NCBI GenBank assembly: GCA_007118195.1
Contig: SKSA01000356.1
Coordinates: 1-12,466, forward strand
Length of the DNA: 12,466 nucleotides
Origin: Anaerobacillus sp.
GTDB lineage: Bacteria; Bacillota; Bacilli; Bacillales; Anaerobacillaceae
Direction: 5' to 3'
Shown: positions 2,572-7,287 of the stretch, one piece after another
Numbering within the stretch: the stretch's first letter is position 1
Layout: every line of letters begins with the position of its first letter
Translations under genes and position numbers: made by a program
Notes under the pieces: model-generated
Told to the model about the DNA's origin: nothing
Database searches by the model: none
What the model saw: only the letters and a program-made list of their open reading frames with translations

Positions 2572-2601
2572 TTGACAATAAGAAATCGCTTATTTTATAA
2601 T
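2572..2601 (+). promoter_or_regulatory. Consensus sigma-A promoter of the MarR-family gene
   Basis: TTGACA (2572-2577) and TATAAT (2596-2601) are perfect consensus hexamers with an 18-bp spacer, predicting a start near 2608. The -35 directly abuts the end of the repeat box TTTGTCTGAAAA. The TTG of the -35 is in frame with the MarR ORF and could be mistaken for its start codon. Confidence 0.85.
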
Positions 2602-2619
2602 TATCTTGAATTTAAGATA
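2602..2619. promoter_or_regulatory. MhqR-box-like operator
   Basis: TATCTTGAATTTAAGATA is a palindrome with 8 of 9 pairs. It fits the B. subtilis MhqR operator as I remember it (TATCTcgaAtTCgAGATA) at most positions. It covers the predicted transcription start of the downstream MarR-family gene, so repression of its own promoter is expected. Confidence 0.6.
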
Positions 2620-2646
2620 TTAAATGACAAAGGTATGATAAAGAAT

Positions 2647-3093
2647 ATGAATAAAAATGAAATTGATAATCTATCGTTAAAGCTATTTATTGTTTTGTCG
2701 CGTGCTACTAGGGCAATAACGGATAAGGTAGAGGCTGATATTCGAAATTATGGTCTCAATCCTACGGAATTTGCTGTCTTAGAACTTTTATATCATAAAG
2801 GAGAACAGCCCATTCAACAAATTGGAAAAAAAGTACTTCTTTCTAGTGGAAGTATTACTTATGTGGTCGATAAATTAGAAAAAAAGCAGTTGTTATTAAG
2901 GGAATCGTGCCCGAAAGACCGCCGGGTGACATACGCTACGATTACTGAAAAAGGTACTACATTAATGGACACTATTTTTCCTGAGCATAAAGCTGCAATT
3001 GAACATATTTTTGAAGGATTAAGTAACGAAGAAAAAAAACAAGCCATTGCGTTCCTTAAAAAATTAGGGCTTCATGCTCAATCTCTTCTCTAA
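2647..3093 (+). CDS. MarR-family regulator, MhqR/YusO-like
   Basis: A 148-residue winged-helix repressor, the normal length for MarR proteins. The dimerisation helix is at about 8-33. The wHTH contains LNPTEFAVLELLYHKGEQPIQQIG (37-60), the recognition helix SSGSITYVVDKLEKK (66-80) and a wing with DRR (91-93). The PIQQIG...VLLSSGSITYVVDKLE pattern is that of MhqR and YusO, which respond to quinones and related electrophiles. C88 (ESCPKDRR) is the only Cys. I place the start at ATG 2647. The in-frame TTG at 2572 is the promoter -35, and ATG 2635 is too close to the AAAGG at 2629-2633; the spacing to 2647 is rather long (13 nt), so the start is uncertain. No MhqR-type target gene (glyoxalase/dioxygenase, azoreductase) is adjacent; the operator suggests autoregulation. 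The gene is flanked by repeat units. Confidence 0.85.
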   Translation: MNKNEIDNLSLKLFIVLSRATRAITDKVEADIRNYGLNPTEFAVLELLYHKGEQPIQQIGKKVLLSSGSITYVVDKLEKKQLLLRESCPKDRRVTYATITEKGTTLMDTIFPEHKAAIEHIFEGLSNEEKKQAIAFLKKLGLHAQSLL

Positions 3094-4086: not shown

Positions 4087-4116
4087 AAAAAAAGCCACGA
4101 AACGTGGCTTTTTTTT
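4087..4116. terminator. Bidirectional terminator between convergent genes
   Basis: AAAAAAAGCCACG (4087-4099) pairs with CGTGGCTTTTTTT (4103-4115) through an AAA loop, giving A- and T-tracts on both sides. It serves the tautomerase-like gene on the plus strand and the small minus-strand gene, whose TAA stop overlaps the T-tract. Confidence 0.9.
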
Positions 4117-4423
4117 ATAGCTTAGTTTTTAAATTTTCTAAACGTTCCACAGCTTTATTAAAATCAATTTCTAGTTCGGTTAATAGTTGTAATGAAGGGT
4201 TTTGGCTAGCTTGTTTTTTTAAAAAATAAAACACTGTCGGTTTTTTATTTTTTATAATCGTCATAATTTCTGCGGAAGGCAATGAATGCTTAGCATTTCT
4301 AATCCGCAAAAACCCCCTTAAAAAATTAGCAAAGCTTGCTAAAGAACTTTTTTCATCGGGTGAAGTTTCGATAAGTTGTTCAAATTTAATAAGTGCTGCC
4401 TTCAAATCGCTATCTTTACTCAT
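4115..4423 (-). CDS. Hypothetical helical protein controlled by a c-di-GMP riboswitch
   Basis: A 102-residue protein I do not recognise. It has no signal peptide or membrane segment. The pattern of charged and hydrophobic residues (LKAALIKFEQLIE, IMTIIKNKK, LLTELEIDFNKAVERLENLKTKL) suggests a small all-helical soluble protein with a possible C-terminal coiled coil (about residues 78-102). I chose the second Met: AAGGGG (4432-4437) lies eight bases before ATG 4423 but only two before the upstream ATG at 4429. Its leader holds a GEMM-type riboswitch (4494-4590), so its level is likely set by cyclic di-GMP, which usually controls motility, adhesion, biofilm or sporulation in Gram-positives. It is the only gene of the transcript, ending at the bidirectional terminator. 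A role in such a lifestyle switch is inference. Confidence 0.75.
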   Translation of the reverse strand: MSKDSDLKAALIKFEQLIETSPDEKSSLASFANFLRGFLRIRNAKHSLPSAEIMTIIKNKKPTVFYFLKKQASQNPSLQLLTELEIDFNKAVERLENLKTKL

Positions 4424-4468
4424 ATGCATTACCCCTTAGATCGTTTTCTGATAAAAGATTAGAAATCT

Positions 4469-4478
4469 GTATAGATAA
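4469..4478 (-). promoter_or_regulatory. Possible anti-P1 segment of the riboswitch expression platform
   Basis: On the RNA, UUAUCUAUAC here is perfectly complementary (10 of 10) to GUAUAGAUAA, the 5' strand of the aptamer P1 (4577-4586). It could compete with P1 formation and so transmit ligand binding. A 5-bp hairpin followed by UUUU (around 4453-4468) lies just downstream. The mechanism, termination or translation, is not resolved. Confidence 0.45.
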
Positions 4479-4493
4479 GCTAGAGTGTAACTC

Positions 4494-4590
4494 GTATTTG
4501 GTAGCTGGCTGACATAGACCTTAATAGATCGTTAGTCCCTATAGCTTTGCGACCTTATTTTTCAATAAGTATGCCTTTATCTATACTTAT
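4494..4590 (-). ncRNA. Cyclic di-GMP-I (GEMM) riboswitch
   Basis: Reading the minus strand, the conserved GEMM-I features appear in order. First comes AUAAAGGCA, the J1/2 ligand region. Next is a 6-bp stem CUUAUU/AAUAAG capped by a GAAA tetraloop (4560-4563). GUCGCAAAGCUAUAGGG follows (the invariant CGCAAAGC is at 4544-4551). The second hairpin carries a CUAAC / UAUG tetraloop receptor (4531-4535 and 4513-4516). The aptamer closes with UCAGCCAGCUACC. This matches the architecture of Rfam RF01051 aptamers, in which the GAAA loop docks into the receptor. The P1 helix is weak. A -10 (TATAAT) just upstream starts transcription at the 5' end of the aptamer. The related 2',3'/3',3'-cGAMP variant of GEMM cannot be fully excluded by eye, but c-di-GMP is usual for Bacilli. 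Confidence 0.9.
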
Positions 4591-4704: not shown

Positions 4705-7287
4705 TTATAAATATTCTTGTCTCACTTTAGCAATCGCCTCTTCTTTTGAAGAGATATCTTGATTTAAATAAGCGCATTCAATGTCTAATATTATTTTTGA
4801 ATAAAGAGGTCCAGGCTTTAAATTTAAAGTTAATAAATCATTGCCATCAATTAGTTTCGGCATTTCGCACCGTTTTTGTAAGTAAGCTTTTAATATTTCA
4901 ACTAAGCCGAATGGCAATGGTTTTAAAACGGCATAACTAATAATGGCCTCACTTCTGTAATTTTTAAGGAAACGATGAATGTTACCTAATGTGGGATTTT
5001 TAAGGAAATTTTGGTCGTCAAACAGTAACTCAACAATTTCCTCAATAATTTTTAAGCTATCATTATTCAAGGCGAAATCTTTAACAATCTTGACCCCGTT
5101 TTCACTTTGTGAAAAAAGAATCGCTAAATAACAAATCCAGGTTTCACTATTTTGTATTTGTTGTTGTAGTGGTTCAACTTCATCAACTAGTGACTTAAAT
5201 AGTCTCAATTTTTGTTCATCAAAAGAGTTAGTACCAACTAAGAAACGGATGACTCCGATCTCGTGAAGTCGTACAAGAGCTTCTACAGGATGATCTTCTT
5301 TAAGTAAAATATTTAATTCATGAGCAATTCTTGGTTTTGATGTTGATATTATTTTGTCAGCAGAGATCATCGCTAACTCTAACGTTTGTTGATCCATGTT
5401 AAAGCCAAAGCGCTGTTCAAAGCGAACGGCTCGTAAAATTCTTGTTGGGTCTTCAACGAAACTAAGGTTATATAAAATTTTGATTTTGTTATGCTCGATG
5501 TCATTATAGCCATGAAAATAATCAATAAGATTACCAAAATGATCGTTATTGATTTTGATAGCCATTGCGTTAATCGTAAAATCACGGCGGAACAAATCTT
5601 CTTTTAAACTTGACATTTCTACTGTTGGTAGTGCTGCTGGATAGTCATAATACTCTGTTCGTGCTGATGTAATATCAATTTTTAAACGAGAGGGATGTTT
5701 CCAAGTCGCTGTTCCAAATTTTTCATGACATCGTACCGTTCCTCCTAAATGTTCAGCTAAGAGATTAGCAAAAGTGATTCCATTTCCTTCAACAACGATA
5801 TCTATATCTTGATTCGTTCGCCCGATAACTAAGTCGCGTACTATACCACCAATGACATATGCTGAATAGTTGACTTGATCGGCAAGTTTCCCAATTTCTT
5901 TTAAAAGCTGTAAAACTTCAAAAGAAAGGAATTTGTTCATTCGGTCGATCAAGCTGATTTCCAATGGCTTTTCTAGACGATTTTTACCTCCTGTTCGAAG
6001 CTGTTCACCGTGGAGAGCTTCAATGACATTTGTTCTAGATATTATCCCAATGATTTGATCGTTATCGATAACGGGCAGTCGTCCGACGTTTTCTTCAATC
6101 ATTAAGTGTTGCACTTCTTCTAGTGAAATCGTTGAATCGATGGTAATAGGGTTTGTACTCATATATCCCTTTACTGGTGCATGACCTAGGCCATGGTGGT
6201 TAGCTTTATCGACATCTCTTCTAGAGATAATACCAACTAGTTTTTCGTCTTCCAATACAGGAAATCCGGTATGTCCATATCTCAGCATCATCTTGCCAGC
6301 ATCCTCGATCGATGTTTTCGTAGAAACTACTTTAACTGGACTCGACATTATATCTTTAGCAACTAGTGCGGGTTTAACGGTTTGAGAAATAAACTTTTTT
6401 ACGATATTTAAAATGTCATGAAAATCTCCGCTTTTAACCATGGCTGATGCTGCCTTTTGGTGACCACCACCACCAAGCTTTTTAATAAGTGGTAAAATAT
6501 CGATGCGCTCTGATGACGATCTCCCAACAATAAAAATTCGCTTTCCCATTTCAACGACGAAAATTAAAGCATCCGTTCCCGTCATTTCTAACGCTTTTCT
6601 TGAAAGAAATGCTAACCCACCAGTGTATTCGTTTTGTTGATGAGAAGCAATTAAAATGTCGACTCCATTAATATAATGTTCTTCACTTTGTTGTAGTAAG
6701 CATTGAAGTAAATACTGCTCCTTTTCTTGTAATGGAGTTTCGGAAAACTTAGAAATGAGTTGTAAGTTAGCTCCATTTTCAATTAAAAAACTTCCTATAA
6801 TTAAATCTCTCGCTGTCGTATTTAAATATGTAAAAGAACCTGTATCTGTATAGAGTCCAAGGGCAAAAATGGTTGCTTCAAAGGAGGAGATAGAAATATT
6901 TCTCGCTTCGATTTCTTCTAAAATGAGTGTAACCGTTGCACCAACTTTTTCGATCGTGGTATAGTTGGCTACAACATTATGCTCGTTTACTTCGTGATGA
7001 TCATAAACAATAAACTCCACCGTTTCTTTTTTTATATATTTTGCAATGTCACCAATACGTTGTAATGAAGCAATATCCACCATAATGACGGTACTAACAG
7101 CTTGCCAATCAATTTGGTTAGGATGGTATAAATTTAGTGAATCACGATAGATTGCTAAAAAACGTTCAACAGCTTTTCCTTGTTTTGTTGGTAATATTAA
7201 CTTAGCTTGTGGGTATAATTTTTTTGCTGCGACCATCGAAGCAAGTCCATCAAAGTCTAAATTGACATGGGAAATAATTACTTGCAA
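4705..7287 (-). CDS. DHH phosphoesterase-CBS-CBS-tRNA nucleotidyltransferase fusion
   Basis: A fusion protein of 860 residues, about twice a normal CCA-adding enzyme. Residues 1-300 are a DHH/DHHA1 phosphoesterase module with HVNLDFDG (7-14), YDHH (95-98) and GGGGHQKAA (272-280), all metal or substrate motifs of NrnA-like proteins. Two CBS domains follow (about 308-360 and 373-427). The class II nucleotidyltransferase core begins near 470: VIGGIVRD (478-485), catalytic DID (494-496), RRDFTINAMA (567-576) and EDPTRILRAVRFEQRFGF (612-629), plus a helical C-terminus. It adds A, C or both to tRNA 3' ends. In some bacteria this fused form is one half of a split CC-adding/A-adding pair; which residues this copy adds is not decided here. 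The CBS pair may sense an adenine nucleotide. Start is TTG, with GGGGG nine bases upstream. No motif is broken. Confidence 0.93.
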   Translation of the reverse strand: MQVIISHVNLDFDGLASMVAAKKLYPQAKLILPTKQGKAVERFLAIYRDSLNLYHPNQIDWQAVSTVIMVDIASLQRIGDIAKYIKKETVEFIVYDHHEVNEHNVVANYTTIEKVGATVTLILEEIEARNISISSFEATIFALGLYTDTGSFTYLNTTARDLIIGSFLIENGANLQLISKFSETPLQEKEQYLLQCLLQQSEEHYINGVDILIASHQQNEYTGGLAFLSRKALEMTGTDALIFVVEMGKRIFIVGRSSSERIDILPLIKKLGGGGHQKAASAMVKSGDFHDILNIVKKFISQTVKPALVAKDIMSSPVKVVSTKTSIEDAGKMMLRYGHTGFPVLEDEKLVGIISRRDVDKANHHGLGHAPVKGYMSTNPITIDSTISLEEVQHLMIEENVGRLPVIDNDQIIGIISRTNVIEALHGEQLRTGGKNRLEKPLEISLIDRMNKFLSFEVLQLLKEIGKLADQVNYSAYVIGGIVRDLVIGRTNQDIDIVVEGNGITFANLLAEHLGGTVRCHEKFGTATWKHPSRLKIDITSARTEYYDYPAALPTVEMSSLKEDLFRRDFTINAMAIKINNDHFGNLIDYFHGYNDIEHNKIKILYNLSFVEDPTRILRAVRFEQRFGFNMDQQTLELAMISADKIISTSKPRIAHELNILLKEDHPVEALVRLHEIGVIRFLVGTNSFDEQKLRLFKSLVDEVEPLQQQIQNSETWICYLAILFSQSENGVKIVKDFALNNDSLKIIEEIVELLFDDQNFLKNPTLGNIHRFLKNYRSEAIISYAVLKPLPFGLVEILKAYLQKRCEMPKLIDGNDLLTLNLKPGPLYSKIILDIECAYLNQDISSKEEAIAKVRQEYL

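Follow-up and report, generated by a model that had tools for sequence, protein, structure and literature searches.

A c-di-GMP-I riboswitch aptamer recurs upstream of an unnamed family of small six-helix proteins in Anaerobacillus and related bacteria

The window, by which we mean the whole 12,466-nucleotide stretch of DNA analysed here, is an entire contig (SKSA01000356.1) of a draft Anaerobacillus sp. genome that is 62% complete and held in 393 contigs. Its minus strand carries a c-di-GMP-I riboswitch aptamer and, behind it, the gene of a small protein, with promoter-like and terminator-like sequences on either side (Table 1). An alternative in-frame ATG at 4429 would give a protein of 104 aa; the Shine-Dalgarno-like stretch is separated by 8 nt from the ATG at 4423 and by only 2 nt from that at 4429, which makes the 102-aa product the likelier one. 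No ORF of 60 aa or more occurs between the stop codon of this gene and a tautomerase-like gene on the other strand, which suggests a transcript with a single gene, in agreement with the preliminary description of this DNA, which had named the 102-residue gene as the only one downstream of the aptamer. The hairpin behind the stop codon was not flagged by the terminator pattern scan; it is overlapped by the only other Rfam match found up to an E value of 1, a sub-threshold one to STnc40 at 4153-4088 (26.7 bits, gathering score 45).

Table 1. Features of the riboswitch-gene unit in the window
Feature	Position	Strand	Basis or remark
Promoter-like TTTACT-18-TATAAT	4624-4595	minus	10/12 matches, just 5' of the aptamer
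c-di-GMP-I (GEMM-I) riboswitch aptamer, complete	4585-4497	minus	RF01051, Infernal
73-nt spacer, presumed expression platform	4496-4424	minus	read from the sequence
Shine-Dalgarno-like AAGGGG in the spacer	4437-4432	minus	read from the sequence
Gene of 102-aa six-helix protein, unnamed family	4423-4115	minus	ORF list and model
Terminator-like hairpin, stem GCCACG/CGTGGC then seven T	4108-4087	minus	read from the sequence, right behind the stop codon

Elsewhere in the window, a histidine-rich ORF of 113 aa without a family match (81-422, minus) and the gene of a ZnuA-family metal-binding protein (1368-2279, plus) lie near a MarR-family gene (2572-3093). An 860-aa protein of the DHH-CBS-polyA-polymerase type is encoded at 4705-7287 (minus); its best NCBIfam match, the A-adding tRNA nucleotidyltransferase, scores 600.7 bits, far under the cut-off of 1440.

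The preliminary description had recognized a near-complete GEMM-I aptamer and had named Infernal with RF01051 as the check. The search returned 78.7 bits (E = 1.7e-14), far over the gathering score of 35 bits, and the match covers model positions 1-87 of 87 without being cut off; the aptamer is real, and "near-complete" has to give way to complete. The conserved core is present, with the GG of GGC, the GAAA loop and the GCAAA stretch, all of them columns that are invariant or nearly invariant among 42 aligned aptamers of the family described below. Promoter-like sites in the region 5' of the aptamer number 5, close to the 3.6 found in shuffles, so the site in Table 1 is weak by itself; over the family, 30 of 39 leaders have a -10-like hexamer no more than 32 nt from the aptamer, compared with 19.9 in shuffles.

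The inability of the preliminary description to assign the protein to a family is borne out by the curated libraries, since the window's protein stays below every Pfam and NCBIfam cut-off. No PDB sequence matches it up to an E value of 10, and the family profile finds nothing better than E = 1 there. Across 79 family members, any one Pfam family matches at most six and any one NCBIfam family at most two. Individual matches include ARM_TT21_5th (19.4 bits with the window's protein, below its cut-off of 27.8), TPR_6 (two of the 79 members, best E = 3.9e-5), NCBIfam ArnR (one member, E = 0.0062), phrog_6593 from PHROGs, which is of unknown function (4/79 and 3/66 members, best E = 2.6e-5), and four PADLOC families, each in a single member (best E = 4.4e-4). 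By eye, residues 52-70 may resemble a helix-turn-helix motif; no helix-turn-helix family is among the 25 families listed of the 42 in Pfam that match the 79 members. In 5.8 billion clustered sequences, a single query retrieved nine proteins, the window's own included, and a 17-row alignment retrieved 24; where their sources give names, these are "hypothetical" or "uncharacterized" and once "tetratricopeptide repeat protein". The nearest named relative, at 77%, comes from Anaerobacillus arseniciselenatis. An AlphaFold2 model built from 79 sequences (mean pLDDT 90.5, pTM 0.82) predicts six helices at residues 3-20, 25-38, 50-60, 62-72, 76-82 and 88-101, and the model of a distant member (L055, pLDDT 89.7) has six helices at matching places. 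A structural comparison of the models gave no convincing PDB match. Literature on the family or on its link to the riboswitch was absent from the matches listed, and nothing was found on BKP35_04260 or AWH56_011070.

Within the order, the family occurs in 52 of 397 genomes and 22 of 135 genera, and 69 copies from these genomes entered the count. At the level of the class it was found in 55 of 398 genomes and 24 of 146 genera, and a phylum-wide draw of 299 genomes gave two matches, namely the window's own and a doubtful fragment (L109, E = 7e-4) that was dropped. The family thus looks confined to the class, which is Bacilli going by the named relatives. Also dropped were a spurious match with three internal stops (L013, E = 0.004), L027, which is the same copy as L012, and L080, L081, L082 and L084 as repeats of copies already counted; L018 and L019 are repeats of L010 and L011. 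Outside the order there were 53 match places, 25 of which were examined as loci. A separate collection of named genomes contributed seven loci (L111-L117); L111, L112, L113, L115 and L116 were already counted, and only L114 (Sediminibacillus albus) and L117 (Brevibacillus fulvus) are new.

The window's genome holds five other c-di-GMP-I sites. By eye, Flp/Tad-like pilus gene sets lie 3' of the aptamer at two of them (L002, 1501-3092; L004, 1501-2924) and a chemoreceptor-like gene at another (L006). At L005 (1288-1912) an aptamer on the minus strand (1501-1590) is followed by a 53-aa ORF, and a 66-aa ORF lying upstream resembles Spo0E by eye; at L001 the aptamer precedes the contig end. Additional c-di-GMP-I aptamers occur within about 3 kb of family copies (L055, 537-621; L056, 2357-2444; L062, 1487-1573; L079, 1645-1731; L087, 3203-3290), so that sites of this class can cluster.

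Whether homologues keep the riboswitch had been named beforehand as a test of the proposal that this protein is an unrecognized output under c-di-GMP control. In Rfam searches of the loci, 40 of the 69 copies, the window's included, are preceded on their own strand by a c-di-GMP-I or c-di-GMP-I-GGC aptamer, so that, apart from the window's, 39 of 68 copies in the order retain the riboswitch. The aptamer lies 30-109 nt before the start codon in 39 of the 40 linked copies; the exception, L034, has it 439 nt upstream with an 88-aa ORF between. The remaining mechanically listed ORFs at these loci with a length of 100 aa or more served as a control; of these 212, one has an aptamer within 110 nt. 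Linked copies occur in 14 of 22 genera and in 7 of 14 families. Twelve genomes carry several copies, with an aptamer on all copies in seven, on some in three and on none in two; one genome holds three copies. The recurrent linkage supports the proposed output protein as far as control by the riboswitch is concerned; a role of the protein in motility, adhesion, biofilm formation or sporulation is putative. RF01051 is present somewhere in all 52 family-holding genomes and in at least 351 of the 397 genomes of the order, the latter figure being a lower bound because few candidates were scored per genome; little is drawn from this co-occurrence, since species are not independent.

Outside the order, 7 of the 25 examined copies have an upstream aptamer (L083, L087-L091 and L101), two have a weak one (L085, 22.8 bits; L086, 34.3 bits) and 16 have none. 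In the collection of named genomes an aptamer precedes the copies at L112-L116 and is lacking at L111 (A. arseniciselenatis) and L117 (B. fulvus).

How the leaders may switch was addressed over the family. Helices were tested in 35 of 39 leaders, the four with spacers shorter than 40 nt being left out. As non-independent samples, these leaders gave a mean z of -1.60 against shuffles for a helix of the aptamer 3' strand with the spacer and a mean z of -1.10 for a helix masking the Shine-Dalgarno site, with 20 of 35 below -1 in both cases. A crude two-state calculation on all 39 leaders, likewise not independent of one another, showed that a free 3' strand raises Shine-Dalgarno access by more than 0.1 in 14 and lowers it in two; 23 leaders showed no clear change. 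Since both helices exceed shuffles and 14 leaders stand against two, a translational OFF switch is favoured over the family, and the relatives' leaders look like translational switches, OFF more often than ON. In L088-L091 (f58) a Shine-Dalgarno-like stretch lies almost directly 3' of the aptamer, and L101, from an f68 genome (1840-2025), has a terminator-like hairpin between aptamer and family gene, unlike the other leaders.

The window's own leader gives no clear direction. A pattern scan found no terminator in it, the whole leader folds no better than its shuffled versions (z = -0.50), the two switching helices are no stronger than chance (p = 0.41 and 0.22), and in the two-state calculation Shine-Dalgarno access shows no clear change (0.32 vs 0.39). 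The 5' flank of the aptamer can pair with CUUAUCUAUA in the spacer, both here and at L009 (p = 0.032 and 0.026, plain shuffles); the two sequences are nearly identical and the pairing therefore counts as one observation. It could fit either direction, and together with the two leaders that point to ON it is what speaks for the opposite arrangement, in which c-di-GMP would open the Shine-Dalgarno site and the protein would be made in the sessile state. Against such an ON switch stand the 14 of 39 leaders that point to OFF and the helix competing for the aptamer 3' strand, which beats chance over the 35 leaders; we regard ON as doubtful for this unit and OFF as the probable direction over the family.

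The neighbours of the family gene were examined as a clue to function. In genus g88, five of eight copies have the gene of a 189-195-aa protein 2-10 nt behind their stop codon, at L055 (neighbour at 2108-2677), L065, L066, L076 and L079, and each of the four neighbour proteins scanned has several helix-turn-helix matches. The aptamer of these pairs is intact at L055, L066 and L079 and decayed at L065 and L076, the last of which also has a stop inside the family match. Neighbour clusters of at least three loci are confined to a single genus, except for a loose cluster of signalling proteins (six loci, four genera). A motif scan found GGDEF, EAL or HD-GYP motifs in 4 of 323 neighbours, which is not counted as enrichment. 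In f68 genomes a polyketide-synthase-like gene lies upstream of the family gene (11 of 26 loci examined, 25 class loci and one plasmid) and an aminopeptidase-like gene behind it (12 of the 26), both by eye; this neighbourhood says nothing clear on the role. We tentatively favour a role for the protein as a protein-binding adaptor in the decision between motile and sessile life, and a partner among transcription regulators is considered because the g88 gene pair suggests one.

Three copies lie on DNA that is, or looks, mobile. A prophage copy (L118, 1842-2303, in IMGVR_UViG_2929886851_000002) has its own c-di-GMP-I aptamer, which scores 87.5 bits with the family model; it is surrounded by terminase, portal, polymerase, helicase, exonuclease, integrase and repressor-like genes and lies on the strand opposite the flanking replication genes. 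At L122 (9681-10447) a family copy without an aptamer follows a macro-domain-like gene at a distance of 29 nt in a region with transposase-, topoisomerase- and coupling-protein-like genes (by eye), and a distant copy (L110, CP139434.1 153308-153613), at a locus where no c-di-GMP-I aptamer was found, sits on a 414-kb plasmid of Brevibacillus halotolerans. These three copies would fit a family that is mainly mobile-element cargo, such as a prophage accessory protein acting on the host or rival phages, whose riboswitch only times its expression. Four queries found no match in 50,697 phage records, three scans of IMG/VR yielded a single virus record, three copies of the genus (L007, L008 and L009) share the same chromosomal neighbours, and the PADLOC matches are single and weak and fall in single members, all of which speaks against this reading; we regard it as unlikely.

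An intact aptamer is absent from 29 of the 69 copies, and some groups lack it altogether (g46, 0/11; f35, 0/5; f39, 0/3). In A. arseniciselenatis no aptamer is left; the start codon follows the stop codon of the upstream gene by 17 nt, and the ribosome-binding stretch is retained despite the loss. Decayed aptamers also occur in genera that have intact ones, at L064 and L065, which score 18.9 and 19.0 bits against the family model (E about 0.08), and, read by eye, at L076. A tree of 87 copies, of which 48 have and 39 lack an intact aptamer, requires 15 label changes compared with 28.8 under shuffling, where none of 500 replicates came out as low; the tree was built from 106 columns and is poorly resolved, with 31 of 84 inner branches well supported. 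We read the link between aptamer and gene as old and lost several times, the alternative being repeated gain. In the window's organism the riboswitch might likewise be a relic in decay that no longer influences the gene, as the lost or decayed aptamers before the relatives L008, L064 and L065 (the latter two at or under 19 bits against the family model) and L076 (by eye) would allow, but an aptamer that scores 78.7 bits and has its core intact makes this improbable.

The GG of GGC is invariant in all 42 aligned family aptamers. Its first G presumably corresponds to G20 of Vc2, the position that sets selectivity, in which case c-di-GMP fits as the ligand better than cGAMP. A G20A change is named in connection with cGAMP binding (PMC6274999), and cGAMP-sensing variants of the class are described (PMC6274999, PMC9262584); with the GG invariant in 42 of 42, 3',3'-cGAMP is a very improbable ligand.

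It is proposed that a promoter just 5' of the aptamer would start a short mRNA whose leader is the c-di-GMP-I riboswitch and whose only gene is that of the 102-aa protein. Binding of c-di-GMP would refold the leader and alter how readily ribosomes reach the Shine-Dalgarno site, and the amount of protein made would thereby be set by the c-di-GMP level of the cell; in the likelier direction over the family, OFF, it would be made when c-di-GMP is low. The six-helix protein would then most likely act by binding a partner protein, which may be a transcription regulator, and would be one of the outputs of the motile/sessile decision. The aptamer, the family and their recurrent linkage are results of the computation; binding of c-di-GMP by the leader and translational control are what we infer from them. 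We put the probability that a working c-di-GMP riboswitch controls a conserved, undescribed output protein at roughly three in four. A wider reading, in which this is an undescribed family of c-di-GMP output proteins, small six-helix adaptors with up to three riboswitch-controlled copies per genome that link the c-di-GMP level to a transcription regulator and can travel with their riboswitch on a prophage, is possible and speculative. In Gram-positive bacteria, many c-di-GMP outputs have, to our knowledge, yet to be identified. A family whose genes so frequently follow this riboswitch across many genera, and that has no name in the curated libraries used, is a well-defined and testable candidate; if the proposal is true, it would add a prophage carrying a c-di-GMP-responsive accessory gene.

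The riboswitch class, its use as both ON and OFF switch and its occurrence in prophages are already known (PMC9262584, PMC3649979). In Clostridioides difficile, Cd1 is described as an OFF switch of flagellar genes that acts by transcription termination (PMC9262584). The family resembles Cd1 in aptamer class, 5' leader position and likely OFF direction; unlike Cd1, most of its leaders look translational and the gene belongs to an unnamed family. Bacillus thuringiensis has the c-di-GMP-I riboswitches Bc1, Bc2 and Bc3-5 (PMC11218506, PMC4933901, PMC4759541), which, like the window's, stand before single genes in a Bacillus relative. Bc2 precedes a collagen adhesion protein, whereas the window's riboswitch has the gene of a small helical protein behind it; the long platform of Bc1 contains terminators, whereas the pattern scan found none in the window's leader. 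In Bacillus methanolicus, two of four c-di-GMP riboswitches precede genes of unknown function (BMMGA3_15625 and BMMGA3_15380), as in the window, and one precedes sinI (PMC4342826); should either unknown gene belong to the family, part of the link between family and riboswitch would already stand, unnamed, in the table of that paper. C. difficile prophages carry a c-di-GMP-I riboswitch in the lysis module of PhiCD119-like phages (PMC3649979). The prophage copy L118 is similar in carrying a riboswitch of this class and differs from the lysis module in that its riboswitch precedes a family member among DNA-replication genes, on the opposite strand.
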